From Acidihalobacter ferrooxydans (lineage in GTDB: Bacteria; Pseudomonadota; Gammaproteobacteria; DSM-5130; Acidihalobacteraceae): a stretch of DNA of 64,000 nucleotides. The notes under the pieces were generated by a model that was given only the letters and a program-made list of their open reading frames with translations, searched no databases and was not told where the DNA came from. A program made the translations under genes and the position numbers. Shown piece after piece: positions 12,899-62,807 of this stretch (its first letter is position 1; the number at the start of each line of letters is the position of its first letter). The DNA is taken from positions 2,129,486 to 2,193,485 of the forward strand of contig NZ_CP019434.1 in NCBI RefSeq assembly GCF_001975725.1. Direction: 5' to 3'.

Positions 12899-14248
12899 AT
12901 GGCCGATAGCCATCTCGATCACGCAAGTACGCGCCTCAGCCTGCTGGCCTGGGCCGAAATTGCCCTGCTCGCTCCGGCCGGGCTGGGTCTGGCGATTTTT
13001 CTGGACCATCAGGCGCCGTTCACCGCCGGCGGTTTCCCCTGGCTCTGGCTCATCCCCTTGCTGCTGGGTCTGCGTCACGGGCTGGCCGCCGCCGCCTTGA
13101 GCAGCTTGCTGCTGATTGCTGGCGGCGTGGCCGCGCACACGTTAGCCATCAGCGCCGCAGCGCCGCCGTTGCTACAGATCGTCGGCGGACTGATCGCCGT
13201 ACTCAGCGCGGGGCAGTACGGCACGAACTGGCGCGCCCGACTTGAAGCCAACCAGCGCCGCACCGAATACGCCGAAGAACGCCTCGAAGCGCTGAGCCGG
13301 GCCTATTTCATTACCCGCATCTCGCATGACCGTCTGGAAGAAGCGCTCATCACTCAACCCATGACCTTACGCGGCGCGCTGGAGCAACTGCGCCCCGTGG
13401 CCGAACGCGCCGCACAGGGGCTGGACGAGTCCACAGCCACAGATCTTCTGCAACTCCTTGCGCAGTATTGTCGTTTCGAAACGGCTGGCGTACATCTGGC
13501 GCGCAACGACCGGTTCGATCCGCAACCTCTCGCCGCGCTCGGGCCCCAGGCGCCGCTGGTCTCGGACGATCCGTTAGTCGGCCTTGCGCGCGAAGGCCGT
13601 CAAGTCGCTTTTTACAGCGTCGATCAGCTGATCGAATTCAATCGTGAAATCACCTATCGCGCGGTATTCCCCCTGCTTGACTGCACCCTTCGGCCCTGGG
13701 GTCTGATCGTGGTGCGCGATCTGCCCTTGCTGGCTGTCAACGAGGAAAACTTCGCCACCGCCAACGCCATTGTTCAGTACGTCGCCGAAGAGACGCGGGT
13801 CGTGACCGAAAGCGCCGATCTGCTGCAGCAATTCCCCTGCTGCCCACCCCACTTCGCGCATGAACTGATCCGCCTGCAAACCTTGCAAACACGGGCGAAG
13901 GTGCGTTCCACGCTGATCGCCGTGCATCTGCCCCCGACCAGCAACGATGAAAACGGACTTTCAGCCGAAGCGATTTACCATGGCATGCGCCGCAGCCTGG
14001 ATGTCTACTGGCTGGCGCCCTTTGCTGCGGATGATCCCGGCTTGCTGGTGCTCCTGCCGCTGGCGGGACCGGCCAGCGCCCGCGGGTACCTCGACCGCCT
14101 CGATGCCTGGCTGAAGGAACACGGCCAAACGCAAGGCCTGGCGCTACCCAATTTGTGGATCGAGCAGATCCTCCTGGATGGACGTCCGGCCGGGAAGCTG
14201 CTCGAGATGACCCACATCCCCTGCGCGCCCATAACATCGCACCCATGA
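12899..14248 (+). CDS. pelD: c-di-GMP receptor PelD
   Basis: The 449-residue protein has four hydrophobic spans (~15-105), a helical linker (~110-145), a GAF domain (~155-310) and a degenerate GGDEF domain (~325-440). The GGDEF motif itself is lost. An RxxD inhibitory-site motif is kept at R365-S-L-D368 in 'RRSLDVYW', nearly the same positions as R367/D370 of P. aeruginosa PelD, which bind c-di-GMP and switch on Pel synthesis. It ends with ATGA overlap into pelE. Confidence 0.94.
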   Translation: MADSHLDHASTRLSLLAWAEIALLAPAGLGLAIFLDHQAPFTAGGFPWLWLIPLLLGLRHGLAAAALSSLLLIAGGVAAHTLAISAAAPPLLQIVGGLIAVLSAGQYGTNWRARLEANQRRTEYAEERLEALSRAYFITRISHDRLEEALITQPMTLRGALEQLRPVAERAAQGLDESTATDLLQLLAQYCRFETAGVHLARNDRFDPQPLAALGPQAPLVSDDPLVGLAREGRQVAFYSVDQLIEFNREITYRAVFPLLDCTLRPWGLIVVRDLPLLAVNEENFATANAIVQYVAEETRVVTESADLLQQFPCCPPHFAHELIRLQTLQTRAKVRSTLIAVHLPPTSNDENGLSAEAIYHGMRRSLDVYWLAPFAADDPGLLVLLPLAGPASARGYLDRLDAWLKEHGQTQGLALPNLWIEQILLDGRPAGKLLEMTHIPCAPITSHP

Positions 14249-15375
14249 TATTGAGCGACTTTTTCACGCCACTCGTTGTGGCCACGCACTGGATACCCGA
14301 GTCCATCATATCCCTTGGCGCCTGGCTGAACCCCACTGCGCCCGCCACACGGCTGGTACCGGGACTGCTCCTTGTGAGCAGTCTGTTCAGTCTGTTGATT
14401 TCCGTCCTCGTCGTCGCCCTGCTGCCAGGGCGGCTGCACCGCCGTCCGGTGCGCAATGCACTGGCCATCGCCGCGCTGGGTTCCCTGCTGCCTGTTCTGG
14501 GTCCGCTGTCCCTGCTCGGCATGGGGCTGATCTTTCCGCTGCTGGAAAAAAACCGGTCGCGCCTGCAACCCGAGCATTTGACCACACCGGACTTCGCCAG
14601 CGAGATTCGCCCGCACAGCGCCGGATTCAGCGCCGGTGGCGCTCTGGCCCGCTTGCGCGGCAACAATGGCGTTCAGGGCATGCGCGCCCTGCTTGCCATC
14701 GAGCACCGGCGCAGCGCCATCAGCACCCGCCTGCTCAGTCAAAGTCTGGGGCATCCAGACGAGATCGTGCGTCTGCTGGCCTATAATTTGCTGGAGCGCC
14801 GCGAGCAGGCGATCGTGGCCCGACTCAGCGAACTCGAACCCCATCTGGATACCGGAAGTCCGTCGGACCTGGAGGAGCGCAGCGAAGCGCATGGCAAACG
14901 GCCCCGTTCTCCCATCGCCGCAGCCGATTCTGCCCAAGTCCGACAGACTCTTGACAACGCCGACACGGCCTGGCTGGCTCTGCAGGCTGCGTCACTGCAT
15001 CTTGAATTCATCTACCTCGAACTGGCCCAGGGCAGCCTGCGCCAGACACACATCCAGGCGGCGGCTCGCCTGCTCGCCGATAGCGCAGAGTTTGCGCCGC
15101 AGAGTCCGTGGTATCCGGCCTGGTTATCCTTGCAGGCGCGCGTCCTTCAATTGCAGGGTGACAAGACTGACGATCCACGTATCGAGAGTCTGTTGAAAGA
15201 CGCACTGGCCGCCGGCTGCGCCCCGGCGCGCGCCCTGCCCTGGCTGCTTGAGCGTGCCTGGCAGCGCCGCGATTACGCCACCCTGAAACACCTCGTGGAA
15301 CACCATCACGTCTATCCCATGATTCCTCATCTTGGCCCTGTGGTCTCCCGCTGGCGCACAAGGACAAACCCATGA
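14245..15375 (+). CDS. pelE: Inner-membrane TPR protein PelE, with repeat-derived insert
   Basis: A 376-residue protein with two membrane spans (~35-60 and ~70-95) followed by a cytosolic helical TPR-like domain; PelE bridges PelD, PelF and PelG in the synthase complex. The start at 14245 overlaps pelD as ATGA; the frame extends further upstream but only inside pelD. The protein is longer than P. aeruginosa PelE (329). Residues ~206-236 are encoded by a 90-bp segment (14861-14950) that matches the dispersed family A repeat found between genes elsewhere in this window. The stop overlaps pelF (ATGA). Confidence 0.9.
   Translation: MILSDFFTPLVVATHWIPESIISLGAWLNPTAPATRLVPGLLLVSSLFSLLISVLVVALLPGRLHRRPVRNALAIAALGSLLPVLGPLSLLGMGLIFPLLEKNRSRLQPEHLTTPDFASEIRPHSAGFSAGGALARLRGNNGVQGMRALLAIEHRRSAISTRLLSQSLGHPDEIVRLLAYNLLERREQAIVARLSELEPHLDTGSPSDLEERSEAHGKRPRSPIAAADSAQVRQTLDNADTAWLALQAASLHLEFIYLELAQGSLRQTHIQAAARLLADSAEFAPQSPWYPAWLSLQARVLQLQGDKTDDPRIESLLKDALAAGCAPARALPWLLERAWQRRDYATLKHLVEHHHVYPMIPHLGPVVSRWRTRTNP
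14861..14950 (+). repeat. Family A repeat copy A1, in frame inside pelE
   Basis: The segment starts CGTCGGACCTGGAGGAGCGC and ends GTCCGACAGACTC. It shares the 19-nt block CATCGCCGCAGCCGATTCT with copy A4 (43877-44037) and the left block CGTCGRACYTGGAGGA. It lacks roughly 70 bp of the middle found in full copies. It is 90 bp (30 codons) long and leaves the pelE frame open. Confidence 0.85.
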
Positions 15376-16889
15376 ATAACGAGACTGACTGTGACATCCT
15401 GCTGCTGCTCGAAGGCACATACCCGTACATCAAAGGCGGCGTCTCCTCCTGGGTGCATCAAATCGTCAGTGGGCTGCCGCATTGGCGCTTCGGCGGCGTA
15501 TTTATCGGCTCGAGGCGGCAGGATTACGCCGAAATCCAGTACCAGTTACCGGCAAATTTCGTGACCTTGAGCGAACACTATCTGTTCGATGAAACACCTG
15601 GCTCGACGCCGCTGCGCCCACCGCGCCTGCCTGCGGACGCACAAGCCAGCTATGTCCGGCTCCACGAATCACTGCGCCGCGGCGAGAGCGGCGCGTTCGA
15701 TCCAGAGGCTTTGCTGGAACCCGGTTCGGCGCTGCGGGAAGCGGCCTTTCTGCATGGCGACGCCGCCTGGCGCTATATCACGCAGTGCTATGAAACCGGC
15801 GCTTCGGAGCCCTCGTTTCTGGATTATTTCTGGACTGTGCGAAACCTCCACAAGCCACTGTGGACCCTGGCCGAGGCCGCGCGCACACTGCCCCGGACAC
15901 GCTTGCTGTTCAGCCCCTCGACCGGCTACGCCGGCCTGCTGGGCGTGTTCGGTGCGCAGCGCCAGGAATGTCCTTTGGTGCTGATGGAACACGGCATTTA
16001 CACCAAGGAACGGCGCATCGATCTGATGAACGCCGACTGGATCGCCGACACCCGCAACCCCTTGCTGCGCGACCCGACCGAGGTCAGCCATCTGCGCGAG
16101 ATGTGGGTACGCTTTTTCGAGGCACTCGGCCGTCAGGCCTATGCACGGGCCGATCCGATCGTTTCCCTGTTCGGGAAGGCCCGCCAACAACAGATTCACG
16201 ACGGGGCCGACCCGCAACGCACACGCATCATCCCCAATGGCGTGGATGTGGCGGGCCTGAGGGCGTTGCGCCGGCCCACGCAAGACGCGCCGCCCGCAGT
16301 GATTGGCCTGCTCGGTCGGGTAGTACCGATCAAGGACATCAAAACCTTCATCCGCGCCGCGCACCGACTGCGCGAACGTCTGCCGGAGGCCCAGGCCTGG
16401 ATCATCGGCCCGGAAGACGAAGACCCCGAGTACAGCCGCGAATGCCACGATCTGGCCCGCGCGCTCGATCTGGGCGATGCGCTGCAGTTCCTGGGCTTTC
16501 AGCGCATTCACGATATTCTGCCGAAGATCGGCGTACTGGTGCTGAGTTCGATCAGCGAAGGGCTGCCGTTGTCGGTGCTGGAGGGTTTCTCGGCGGGCCT
16601 GCCCAGCGTGACCACCGACGTCGGCGCTTGCAGTGAGCTGATCTACGGCCGCGAGGGTGACGCAGCCGACCGCGCGCTGGGTGCGGCCGGCGCCGTAGTG
16701 GGTCTGGCCGATCATGAGGCCTTGGCCGAGCGCTGCGCCGAGCTGCTTGAGGATCAGGCCCACTACGCCGCCGCTGTGCGCGCCGCGACCGCCCGCGTGG
16801 AGCGTTACTACGACCGCCCCACCATGCTCGACACCTTCGATGCGTTGTTCGCACAGAAGCTGACCACCCCGACCGAGGAAACCCGCTGA
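15372..16889 (+). CDS. pelF: Pel glycosyltransferase PelF (GT4)
   Basis: The 505-residue cytosolic enzyme (P. aeruginosa 507) polymerises Pel from UDP-activated amino sugars. It has the N-terminal 'LLEGTYPYIKGGVSSW' glycine loop of GT-B enzymes, 'LMEHGIYTKER', and the C-terminal EX7E motif in 'SEGLPLSVLEGF'. It overlaps pelE by 4 nt and pelG by 1 nt, so pelD-G form one translationally coupled chain. Confidence 0.96.
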   Translation: MNNETDCDILLLLEGTYPYIKGGVSSWVHQIVSGLPHWRFGGVFIGSRRQDYAEIQYQLPANFVTLSEHYLFDETPGSTPLRPPRLPADAQASYVRLHESLRRGESGAFDPEALLEPGSALREAAFLHGDAAWRYITQCYETGASEPSFLDYFWTVRNLHKPLWTLAEAARTLPRTRLLFSPSTGYAGLLGVFGAQRQECPLVLMEHGIYTKERRIDLMNADWIADTRNPLLRDPTEVSHLREMWVRFFEALGRQAYARADPIVSLFGKARQQQIHDGADPQRTRIIPNGVDVAGLRALRRPTQDAPPAVIGLLGRVVPIKDIKTFIRAAHRLRERLPEAQAWIIGPEDEDPEYSRECHDLARALDLGDALQFLGFQRIHDILPKIGVLVLSSISEGLPLSVLEGFSAGLPSVTTDVGACSELIYGREGDAADRALGAAGAVVGLADHEALAERCAELLEDQAHYAAAVRAATARVERYYDRPTMLDTFDALFAQKLTTPTEETR

Positions 16890-19316: not shown

Positions 19317-19381
19317 GGAACTGATTCTCCGCTAGCTGGTAGTCCCACAGCACGACTGGGGACCGTCAATGACATACTCGC

Positions 19382-19549
19382 ATTATCCCAGATAATCCAT
19401 CAGGCGAGGCGATGATTGCACAGAGATCCGTATTCACAGCGGATTTTCTTCCGCGAGCGGCCTTCTTGCGCGATGCTCTGGCGAAGAAATGTTCTGCGAA
19501 TTCAAATATCAAGCAAGGCAACCTTTCCCGATGGATCATCTGGGATAAT
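19382..19549. repeat. Family B palindromic repeat, copy B1
   Basis: A 168-bp element with long terminal inverted repeats: ATTATCCCAGATAATCCATC on the left and its near-complement at 19531-19549. The interior block GGCGATGATTGCACAGAGATC is shared (inverted) with copy B2 at 25485-25589. It lies in the divergent gap between fmdB and the dsrE-like gene. Confidence 0.8.
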
Positions 19550-25418: not shown

Positions 25419-25484
25419 CGCCCACGTCCTTTATCGGCATCATAGACCTGTAACGTTGTCATGTGAGTTCTGCCACCTGGCTTG

Positions 25485-25589
25485 AACCCGGATAATCCAT
25501 CAGGAGAGAAGCGACTGCCTGATCTTTGGATCCCCTGTGAATCCCGATCTGTGCGCAATCATCGCCTTGCCTGATGGGTTATCCGGGTT
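25485..25589. repeat. Family B palindromic repeat, copy B2
   Basis: A 105-bp element bounded by AACCCGGATAATCCATCAGG and its near-perfect complement ending ATCCGGGTT. Its interior GATCTGTGCGCAATCATCGCC is the inverted counterpart of the interior of copy B1. It lies in the 487-bp gap before the large GGDEF-EAL gene. Confidence 0.82.
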
Positions 25590-25661
25590 GATCAAACAAC
25601 AACACGATTCGAAAATCCAATCAACTGGGCCCTATAACATGTCTATTTTTCGCACGATGAT

Positions 25662-35042: not shown

Positions 35043-35720
35043 ATGACAGCACACACCGTACTTTTTCTGCGCGCCGCGCCGGGCACAGGTACGCTGGGCG
35101 CGGCGCTGGCCGCGGAGGGTTTTCTGGTGCATTACCTGCGCCGTTTCGATGCGCTTGCCGCACTGTGGAGCGCGCTACCCTGCCAAGCACTGATCGCCGA
35201 GCCCGACGCAACCGACGCGCTCGCCGGGCTAGCCCAGGCGCGGCGACCGCAGGTCTGCCTGGCGCTGGGCGGTGATGGACGCGCCACGTTGGACGGTGCG
35301 CTGGCGCTGGGCGGTGATGGACGCGCCACGTTGGACGGTGCGCTGGCGCTGCCTGCCGACATCGATCCGGTCGAAGCCATCGCACGGCTGCGTGCGCTCC
35401 TGCGCCGCGCCAACGGCTATCCACCGCAGTGCCGCGTTGGGCCGCTCGGTATCGACCCGCTACGCGGGCGCGCCAGTCTCGCCGGTCGGCCACTACGCCT
35501 GCCACCGCGTGAACTGCGTCTGCTGTGCCTGCTCGCCGAGCACCCCGGGCAGGCCGTGCCGATCACCCGACTTGTCGCCGCGCTGCGCCCGACCGGCGCA
35601 GTCAGCCCCTCGCTGGTACCGACCTATATTGGACGCCTGCGCCGTCAACTCGGCCCGCGCTGGATCCAAACCCTGCCCGGTATCGGCTACCGCATGACCC
35701 CACCCGGTACCGTCACATGA
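35043..35720 (+). CDS. OmpR/PhoB-type regulator with degenerate receiver (1)
   Basis: A 225-residue protein. The C-terminal ~90 residues form a winged-helix DNA-binding domain ('LPPRELRLLCLLAEHPGQ', 'IQTLPGIGYRMTP'). The N-terminal half resembles a receiver domain but lacks a clear phospho-acceptor pattern and contains a 14-residue tandem duplication (GGDGRATLDGALAL twice) caused by a perfect 42-nt repeat. The frame extends upstream to 34986; the ATG at 35043 is preferred. The gene is divergent from fbpA and overlaps the next regulator by ATGA. No histidine kinase is near. Confidence 0.75.
   Translation: MTAHTVLFLRAAPGTGTLGAALAAEGFLVHYLRRFDALAALWSALPCQALIAEPDATDALAGLAQARRPQVCLALGGDGRATLDGALALGGDGRATLDGALALPADIDPVEAIARLRALLRRANGYPPQCRVGPLGIDPLRGRASLAGRPLRLPPRELRLLCLLAEHPGQAVPITRLVAALRPTGAVSPSLVPTYIGRLRRQLGPRWIQTLPGIGYRMTPPGTVT
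35261..35344 (+). repeat. Perfect 42-nt tandem duplication inside regulator 1
   Basis: Two identical 42-nt copies (35261-35302 and 35303-35344, each beginning GGCGCTGGGCGGTGATGG) lie head to tail, followed by a 6-nt partial copy. The duplication is in frame and adds 14 residues to the receiver-like domain. Confidence 0.95.
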
Positions 35721-36458: not shown

Positions 36459-36620
36459 CAGTCCGTCGGACCCGGAAAAAATCGACTGCGGCGGTAGGAA
36501 ATTGGCCCCACAATCCGCTCTTTTTCGTCGAATAGAACGACTATTTTCCTGAAAAACCGCAAAACCGGCCTCCATTACACACTCACCACACCACAAACCT
36601 CCAGGTCCGACAGGCTCGCA
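36459..36620. repeat. Family A dispersed repeat, copy A2
   Basis: A ~162-bp element starting near CAGTCCGTCGGACCCGGA and ending CCAGGTCCGACAGGCTCG, with the family A core CTCTTTTTCGTCGAATAGAA in its middle. It lies between the regulator pair and pfkA. The remainder of this 340-bp gap (36371-36458 and 36621-36710) shows no gene. Confidence 0.85.
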
Positions 36621-38354: not shown

Positions 38355-38523
38355 CTAGTAGCCTGTCGGACTTGGAAAGAATCGGCTGCGACGATGGGAT
38401 AATGGGCCCATTCCCACGCTCTTTCTCGTCGAATAGAACTACTATTGTCCTCAAAAGACCGTGAAACTGGCCTCCATTCCCCACTCGCCTCGCTACGATT
38501 CTCCAAGTCCGATAGGCTCCTAG
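38355..38523. repeat. Family A dispersed repeat, copy A3
   Basis: Element of ~165 bp bounded by GCTAGTAGCCTGTCGGACTT and its near-complement ending AGTCCGATAGGCTCCTAG. The interior includes CGCTCTTTCTCGTCGAATAG and CATTCCCCACTCGCCTCG, which match copies A2 and A4. It lies 25 nt after the atpC stop. Confidence 0.9.
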
Positions 38524-43876: not shown

Positions 43877-44037
43877 GGAGCCCGTCGAACTTGGAGGATC
43901 GTAGCGAGGCGAGTGGGGAATGGAGGCCAGTTTCTCGCTCTTTTGAGGACGAGTGGTTCTATTCGACGAAAAAGAGCGGGGAAATGGGCCCATTATTCCA
44001 TCGCCGCAGCCGATTCTTTCCAGGTCCGACAGGCTCC
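43877..44037. repeat. Family A dispersed repeat, copy A4 (inverted)
   Basis: A 161-bp element with terminal inverted repeats GGAGCCCGTCGAAC and GTCCGACAGGCTCC. It is in the opposite orientation to A2/A3 and contains CATCGCCGCAGCCGATTCT, also found inside pelE. It lies five bases past the rarA stop. Confidence 0.9.
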
Positions 44038-52296: not shown

Positions 52297-52485
52297 CCGG
52301 TTACCTTAGAATTCATGCCAGATCATCCATTAGACGAGCTTTTCATGCCAACGCATTGAATAAATAAGAGTTTCATGGGATATTGCGCAAGGCAATGCCG
52401 TTCTCTCAGAAAAACCCTATACAGCCAATCTGCAGCATGATCGTGACGACGCAGCAGATCGATCATCCGGGGGTCATGAGCAGGC

Positions 52486-53571: not shown

Positions 53572-54471
53572 TCAGCGTCGACAGACTTCCCGCAGCGCCG
53601 CAGCCGATTCGCGGGCCGTTTTTTCGCCATCGGCAATCGCTTCGACCCCACGGTGAAAATCCATCAAGCCGATCCGCGCGAGACGCGGCGCAAGCAGCAA
53701 CTCCGGCGGGTCGCCGGCCATGCGGCTGCGGGTAATTCTCGCCGACATGATATTGATGCTGCGCCCAAGCACTTCGAGGATCGAGGGCGAGGCGACCGCA
53801 TCGTCATCACGCAGGAACGGCCCGAACCACTGCGATACCCGGTCGAGCACACCCTCCTCGAACTCAGTGGCCTGCTGCGCGGCGGGAGGATGGGCGATCC
53901 TGTGCCGTTCGAGAAGATCTGCGTTCAGATCCACCGCGATCACGATATCCGCCCCAAAGGCCCGGCACAGGGACACTGGCACGGGATTGACCAGACCGCC
54001 GTCGACCAGCCAGCGTCCGTCGTAAACATGAGGTGCGAACAGCCCCGGCAAGGCCATCGATGCGCGCGTGGCTGACAATAACGACCCTTCGCGCAACCAC
54101 ACCTCGTTGCCGATGATCAGGTCGGTCGCCACGGCGCCATACGACGAATCCAGACTTGCGATGTCCTGATCCGGAATGAGTTGCTCAAGCGCATCGAGCA
54201 GGCGTTGACCTGAAATCAGACCACCGGCGAGGCGCAGATCGAGCAGCGAGAACACCTGCCGCCGGGTGAGCTTCCCGACCCACGCCGAAAATTCATCAAA
54301 TGCGCCACTGACCCAGGCCGCGCCAACCAGAGCTCCGACCGAGGTGCCACACACGATGTCCGGCGCGATGCCCAATTCGCGCAGCACGCGCAAGACGCCG
54401 ATATGCGCCCAGCCGCGCGCCGCGCCACTGCCCAGCGCCAGGCCAATGCGCGGCGTCCGTGCGGCGCTCAT
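53572..54471 (-). CDS. rssA: Patatin-like phospholipase (RssA-like)
   Basis: The 299-residue protein has the glycine-rich oxyanion loop 'GSGAARGWAHIG', the nucleophile motif GTSVG (Ser ~46) and the catalytic Asp in 'DGGLVNPVPV', the patatin Ser-Asp dyad. RssA-like enzymes are lipolytic acyl hydrolases with unclear substrates. The start overlaps the upstream mscS-type gene stop (ATGA). No signal peptide is seen. Confidence 0.88.
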   Translation of the reverse strand: MSAARTPRIGLALGSGAARGWAHIGVLRVLRELGIAPDIVCGTSVGALVGAAWVSGAFDEFSAWVGKLTRRQVFSLLDLRLAGGLISGQRLLDALEQLIPDQDIASLDSSYGAVATDLIIGNEVWLREGSLLSATRASMALPGLFAPHVYDGRWLVDGGLVNPVPVSLCRAFGADIVIAVDLNADLLERHRIAHPPAAQQATEFEEGVLDRVSQWFGPFLRDDDAVASPSILEVLGRSINIMSARITRSRMAGDPPELLLAPRLARIGLMDFHRGVEAIADGEKTARESAAALREVCRR

Positions 54472-56700: not shown

Positions 56701-56829
56701 AACCGAAAATCAGGAGCGGATTGTAGCGGTTTTCACGACAATCCAGATATTCCGCTGCCTGGGAGCCGACCAAACCTGGAGGTTCATGGCGACACGAGTG
56801 AGCATGAGCAATAGGGGTTCTGTTTGACA

Positions 56830-56935
56830 GCGGTTCTGTTCGACGACGGCTCTATTTGACGAATAGAACGGATTGTGAACCCATCGGCCCAACGCCGCCG
56901 CCGGGTTTTCCGGGTCCGACGGGTTCCAAAGGCCC
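56830..56935. repeat. Partial family A repeat, copy A5
   Basis: About 105 bp sharing TTTGACGAATAGAACGG and CCCATCGGCCCAACGCCG with the family core, and ending GGGTCCGACGGGTTCC like the right terminal repeat. The left terminal repeat is not evident. Confidence 0.65.
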
Positions 56936-61212: not shown

Positions 61213-61487
61213 CAGACATCCCGCCATGCTTCAGCAGCAATCCCCTGCGGCTGCGCTGGACTTGAGCCGGGGCCTGCTCCCGCATTCGCGGGGTTCTCCC
61301 GATCCAGCGCCCACTGCATGGGATTGTTTGCAATGTACTCCCGAATCGCGTGCAACGAGGCCTCGTCACGGATGATGTATTCGTAATAATTGCGTTGCCA
61401 GACCCGCCCACGGAAAGCTTTCCATCCGCCGGTTTTTACCCCATCGGTATAGCGCTTGGTAGTCAGAGTCTTGAAACGATGCACGAC
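61212..61487 (-). pseudogene. RAYT (REP-associated tyrosine transposase) C-terminal fragment
   Basis: The sequence 'FRGRVWQRNYYEYIIRDEAS' and 'IREYIANNPMQWALDRENP' is the C-terminal part of TnpA-REP/Y1_Tnp transposases. The N-terminal half with the HUH motif is absent, cut by the IS element whose left end is at 61487. Such genes often sit between hsdS and hsdR. Catalytically dead. Confidence 0.85.
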
Positions 61488-61526
61488 TGAACCGCCCCGG
61501 GTATTCCGGAGACTGTTTTGTTTGAG

Positions 61527-62746
<1,220 letters not shown>

Positions 62747-62807
62747 GACTCTATCCTCTCAAGAAATAGAGTCTCCGGGAAACCCGGGGCGGTTCAGTTT
62801 GGGGTGT

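Follow-up and report, generated by a model that had tools for sequence, protein, structure and literature searches.

In the pelE gene of Acidihalobacter ferrooxydans, the 95 bp at 14856-14950 (+) are a complete copy of a repeat that is palindromic, MITE-like, and bounded by the inverted ends GAGCCTGTCGGACYTGGA. We read this segment, with a probability of about 0.93, as a non-autonomous element that inserted into pelE in frame and is tolerated there. Its membership in the repeat family, its open frame, its absence from homologues, and a second filled/empty pair in tmcA are established. The first-pass annotation of this DNA had reported a repeat inside pelE; that observation is confirmed and is stronger than first stated. 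Positions given without a locus label are those of the window, the whole 64,000-nucleotide stretch that was analyzed.

The repeat copy in pelE and the empty site in its homologues

The host frame (14245..15375, +) encodes 376 aa from ATG and is open throughout, element included. No Pfam or NCBIfam model matched the protein, which we name PelE from its homologues and from the position of its gene beside pelF (15372..16889, +; NCBIfam NF038011, 626.5 bits against a cut-off of 100), the gene that identifies the pel cluster. PelE is described as part of a PelD-PelE-PelF-PelG inner-membrane complex (PMC10269871). The element touches residues 204-236, covering 205-235 fully and the two outermost residues in part. 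Its terminal inverted repeats read AAGTCCGTCGGACCTGGA and, from the other end, GAGTCTGTCGGACTTGGG; the 95 bp form an imperfect palindrome, and an example of the peptide encoded by the insert is SPIAAADSAQVR. Codon scores of 0.40 and 0.27 in the flanking sequence give a coding signal on both sides. The 4-bp flanks are CCGG on the left (14852..14855, +) and TTGA on the right (14951..14954, +), the latter diverged from the family consensus CYRG (mostly CTAG), and at present they show no duplication.

The repeat was originally bordered at 14861-14950 and linked to intergenic copies by the ends GTCGGAC/GTCCGAC and a 19-nt core. The repeat and the likeness stand, and the 5′ edge moves to 14856, in the register of the other short copies. 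The ends lie at 14862-14868 and 14938-14944, and the 7-mer alone is at chance level (11 in the window vs 10.3 expected). The core occurs exactly at 14913-14931 and 43999-44017, with one mismatch at 38378-38396(-) and with two at 53593-53611, where shuffles expect 0.07 matches. In a blastn search of the genome, the best other copy among the candidates scored is 85% identical to the pelE segment over 89 bp (E 3.3e-23). The description of the segment as a dispersed intergenic repeat carried in frame holds for membership, frame, and insert, with the correction that the family is mostly, not wholly, intergenic.

The insert is absent from all 33 PelE homologues compared, 29 of them from a related-locus search and four from a genome search. 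The related-locus search confirmed 135 loci and kept 80, from which 33 homologues were extracted and 29 aligned; the four left out comprised one with masked letters, one with a short start, and two that were not needed. These loci include Chromatiales, Marinobacter, Pseudomonas, Acidovorax, and others. In two sister-genus genomes (G002 and G004), the PelE matches end at residue 198-199 and restart at 234-242, and these two closest homologues are exactly 32 residues shorter at the element site; no PelE match was found in the third sister genome (G003) or in the same-genus genome G001. Between two conserved anchors there are 66 residues here, 34 in both closest homologues, and 34-46 across all 33. 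The gap looked for at residues 206-236 is seen in every homologue compared, and none of them has the inserted segment. The addition, put earlier at about 30 residues, is an in-frame insert of ∼32 residues; the sister proteins differ by 32, where 95 bp plus 4 bp would give 33, and the exact borders of the insert cannot be fixed because homologues differ in the length of the PelE linker, by as many as 12 residues.

That variation, seen in some taxa, is what could be said for a chance similarity, or for an ancestral stretch of PelE coding sequence that gave rise to the repeat family. We regard this as hardly credible: all 33 homologues are without the segment, a profile from which the pelE copy was left out still recovers it from the window at E 2.8e-19, and related repeats are found in further families of the class. 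The pelE copy is also the most diverged of 17 aligned short copies (81% identity to a consensus made from the others) and hence is not the source.

A family of palindromic repeats with MITE features

A profile search on stretches fetched around matches, followed by merging, gave at least 126 copies in the genome at nhmmer 30 bits or more; the count is a lower bound, and at least one more copy was met at L238. With blastn, the pelE segment gave at least 49 matches to its own genome (3,448,835 bases, one contig) at E <=1 among the best 40 of 156 candidates scored, and a covariance model built from 17 short copies gave at least 107 at E <=1 among the best 150 of 2226 candidates scored. Both 18-nt ends lie within five mismatches of consensus in 105/126 copies, which fall into 60 long (155-165 bp), 38 short (85-100 bp), and 7 other copies, with modal lengths of 161 bp (22 copies) and 95 bp (21 copies). 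The 18-nt end has 204 sites at two or fewer mismatches, and a reversed control has none. In the window, long-form copies lie at 36459..36617 (-; 159 bp, diverged), 38359..38519 (-; 161 bp), and 43878..44036 (+; 159 bp, flanks CCAG/CCAG), the last probably the copy called A4 in the first-pass annotation; a degraded long-form copy lies at 56763..56925 (+; nhmmer 47.5 bits). Four loci hold mini copies of 57-58 bp, a third size class that shares the inverted ends (L137:1125-1181, L144:1197-1253, L145:1193-1250, and L148:2189-2245).

Several features of a MITE are present: a short element in many dispersed copies (126), terminal inverted repeats (105/126), and filled/empty sites, with tmcA filled here and empty in G001 and pelE filled here and empty in 33 homologues. 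The copies are too short to encode a transposase. Most of them are flanked by CTAG, CCAG, or CTGG. Left and right tetranucleotide flanks are identical in 26/105 copies vs 16.4 expected (P 0.003). CTAG reads the same on both strands, which weakens this test; reverse-complement pairs occur in 23/105 vs 16.5 expected (P 0.035). The excess of identical flanks is, on these sequences, consistent with a 4-bp target duplication, and the element would have moved by a transposase acting in trans with such a duplication. As IS5-group elements duplicate YTAR sites, one may guess at an IS5-like mobilizing transposase. At nine DDE_Tnp_1 loci and at 13 further sites of the end sequence, no insertion sequence bounded by such ends (GAGCCTGTCGGACTTGG) was found. 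Those 13 sites, outside the copies then known, proved to be five long copies, four mini copies (57-58 bp), and four sites that have a single end. A parental transposon considered at L238 and L242, two of the nine loci, was rejected, as the exact ends there belong to neighboring repeat copies of about 158 bp.

The short consensus has 4/6 frames without stops, so that an insertion at a tolerant site could leave a gene open; the short form with its 4-bp target duplication would add 99 bp, or 33 codons. We considered whether the element is built for coding, and this is unsupported, the consensus being just mildly more open than shuffles (358/2000 shuffles equally or more open for the short form, 107/2000 for the long). 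The frame used in PelE is open in 27/38 short and 46/60 long copies, the next frame in 29/38 and 47/60, and one frame on the other strand in 35/38 short copies; the PelE frame is therefore not special. In 57/105 copies, the length with 4 bp added is a multiple of three.

Other repeats are also present in the window. Searched with Rfam at gathering threshold, the window gave an ALIL pseudoknot as its sole match and nothing at the element; the pseudoknot (62352-62468) lies within 61486-62798, a segment with inverted 41-nt arms that we take to be probably an IS3-family insertion sequence with a frameshift signal. A separate repeat family around AGATAATCCATCAGGCGAG occurs at 19377-19444, 25477-25592, and 52307-52338 and includes a 63-nt inverted pair, 84% complementary. 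At 35259-35342, a perfect 2 x 42-bp tandem duplication lies in an open frame, with 14 codons per unit.

A second in-frame copy in tmcA and the fate of the inserts

The insertion is not unique to pelE. A second in-frame copy (G000 C1:3043152-3043246(-), locus L132) lies inside a 744-aa open frame for the tRNA(Met) cytidine acetyltransferase TmcA, which matches Pfam PF05127 and PF13718 and scores 412.8 bits against NCBIfam NF041296, below the cut-off of 700 of that model. The TmcA of the same-genus genome G001 is shorter by exactly 33 residues at the insert, which equals 95 + 4 bp. TmcA was matched in eight other genomes, of which seven were aligned and the eighth (G013) was left out; the insert is absent from all seven, with 35-40 residues between anchors vs 73 here. 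The PelE and TmcA inserts have the same orientation and the same peptide frame, and their peptides are SPSDLEERSEAHGKRPRSPIAAADSAQVRQT and RLSDSEERSGASGQWPAYPVAAADSFQTRQA, respectively, with the consensus SLSDLEDRSEASGEWAHYPIAAADSFQVRQA.

In total, 87 frames cross 60 of the 126 elements with at least 25 aa on both sides. Besides PelE and TmcA, 50 of these were put to Pfam, and none gave a third in-frame case with homology on both sides. Ten of the 50 have a Pfam family, in each case downstream of the element, and it follows that many copies sit just before genes. Six elements have positive codon scores on their two sides; besides those in pelE and tmcA, these are four that each have 15-31 aa on one side. 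Two of these four were tested with Pfam; one is an outer-membrane-efflux gene with the element upstream, and the other gave no match. Elsewhere, a copy in G001 (L134:1501-1595) overlaps the 3′ end of an open frame, presumably TruD-like (named by eye), and gives its stop codon. In G085, a 192-bp copy (L253:287-478) encodes the C-terminal ∼64 residues of a long open frame and directly follows a tail in it; by eye, we take the frame to be subtilase-like and the tail GlyGly-CTERM-like, and the repeat may supply a new C-terminus there.

We modeled PelE with AlphaFold using 30 sequences (mean pLDDT 79.2). The model predicts helices at 173-203 and 226-257 and renders the insert as a short helix (207-216) plus coil. 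Block-mean pLDDT values over residues 201-240 are 70, 56, 57, and 79, vs 93-94 over 171-200 and 92-93 over 241-260; low values are expected for an insert found in no homologue. A homologue without the insert (L157) is modeled with helices 176-204 and 209-228 and a 4-residue join at pLDDT 97-98. The element is thus predicted to lengthen the turn of a helical hairpin, with low confidence in the placement of the insert itself. A Foldseek search of the model against the PDB gave no match at E <=0.001. At such a turn, extra residues are likely tolerated. We picture a repeat that entered this turn and lengthened it by about 32 residues, with the fold probably kept and PelE presumably still working.

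Might the insert instead have acquired a function? It had been called domesticated, and its peptide could act in PelE under selection, for example as a contact in the PelDEFG inner-membrane complex. The pelE copy has kept the modal length of 95 bp, and its frame is open though 52% of neutral simulations with the same changes gain a stop. Against this, the 18 sites that differ from the consensus fall 7, 5, and 6 at codon positions 1, 2, and 3, with no third-position concentration, and they cause 10 amino-acid changes vs 11.0 expected if neutral (P 0.37), in a low-power test; the segment is also modeled at low confidence. The TmcA insert behaves in the same way, with 15 sites and 9 amino-acid changes vs 9.66 expected (P 0.45). 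The test is weak for both inserts, since it counts changes from the family consensus and not from the true source copies, the numbers are small, and every homologue compared is without the insert. As about half of the neutral simulations gain a stop (0.52 for pelE, 0.45 for tmcA), the persistence of both open frames suggests, mildly, that the two genes are retained. With changes neutral in number and without codon-position bias, "domesticated" is not upheld, and we judge a selected function of the peptide quite improbable.

An action at the RNA level is also unlikely, to a slightly lesser degree. Here, a hairpin in the pel transcript would serve as a processing or stability signal, and the peptide would be incidental. 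The segment folds as RNA at -41.8 kcal/mol, and RNase III is described as cutting transcripts with Correia elements (PMC10969869). The fold is, however, only modestly better than that of shuffles (z -1.68, 13/200 as good), and no terminator-like or promoter-like pattern is seen in 14700-15400. We keep to a tolerated in-frame insertion as the reading of the pelE segment.

Occurrence beyond the genome and comparison with known repeats

Copies are found in the same-genus genome G001 (at L134 and L135, with a third of 161 bp), and none was found at E 0.01 in three genomes of the same taxonomic family (G002-G004) among the best 150 candidates scored in each. The 18-nt end occurs at one or no mismatch in 16/369 genomes of the class, own genome included; most of the other genomes have 1-3 sites, and a reversed control gave a single site, in G111. 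Full-length relatives of a 161-bp element from G085 reach 94% identity in G336 and 93% in G311; with the G001 copy, the G085 element shares 71% identity. G085, G336, and G311 belong to three different families, none of them that of A. ferrooxydans, and gave 44 (G085), 44 (G336), and 20 (G311) blastn matches, figures that are not copy numbers, several being two strands or halves of one palindrome. Such cross-family relatives point, as far as sequence can tell, to horizontal spread or recent activity. We also observed 161-bp elements of the same design at L266 and L267 (G085), L261-L263 (G336), and L270-L298; CTAG flanks border most of the copies checked. The 29 loci L270-L298, read with the codon table of the window and some of them ending at contig ends, showed no convincing case of an in-frame insertion with coding sequence on both sides, and a blastn search of a plasmid collection with a 161-bp copy gave no match.

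Both modal sizes, 95 and 161 bp, become multiples of three when 4 bp of target is added to each, and whichever way the element lies, its inverted ends give the same peptide ends (SLSDL...QVRQA). That this MITE family, spread horizontally, acts as a portable, frame-preserving protein insert, and so supplies free-living bacteria with new protein segments in the manner of Rickettsia palindromic elements, is a speculative reading that we consider improbable.

The likenesses to known repeats drawn here are likenesses of described features. Correia elements of Neisseria come in full and internally shortened size classes and target TA; the repeat described here is flanked by CYRG, mostly CTAG. Like this family, they are reported at >120 copies per genome with inverted ends, mostly upstream of genes (PMC10969869). 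REPs and GTAG- and CGTC-tagged palindromes are likewise described as dispersed in bacterial genomes (PMC3733652), but REPs are palindromes of 20-40 bp, whereas the main forms of this repeat, with their 18-nt inverted ends, measure ∼95 and ∼160 bp. The enterobacterial RU-1 (ERIC), RU-2, and RU-3 are described as small MITE-like repeats that lie mostly between genes, carry open frames, and in some copies fall inside annotated genes; their sizes are 127, 168, and 103 bp, against about 95 and 160 bp here (PMC2759123). In the literature seen on Acidihalobacter repeats, PelE with MITEs, and CTAG MITEs, nothing was recognizable as this family; the string GCCTGTCGGACTTGG turned up in writing on Geobacter cytochrome filaments, presumably by chance.

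In-frame palindromic repeats in proteins appear to be best known from Rickettsia and from some enterobacterial repeats (PMC10969869, PMC2759123). Rickettsia palindromic elements (RPEs) are described as about 150 bp long, many of them in frame in unrelated protein genes with a conserved peptide each (PMC10969869). The family described here likewise places a palindromic repeat in frame in unrelated genes with a shared peptide, in two cases only, PelE and TmcA. Nearly half of RPEs are reported inside genes (PMC10969869), whereas two in-frame insertions were found among 126 copies here, and Rickettsia is obligately intracellular, whereas the host here appears to be a free-living acidophile. Read by this analogy, the pelE and tmcA inserts are of a known kind, in which a host gene reads through mobile palindromic DNA. 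New here are the repeat family itself, its presence in genomes of different families, and, in proteins, the two filled/empty pairs. With two independent in-frame cases, one in a membrane biofilm protein and one in an RNA-modifying enzyme, the family is a tractable case in which to study when mobile DNA turns into protein.
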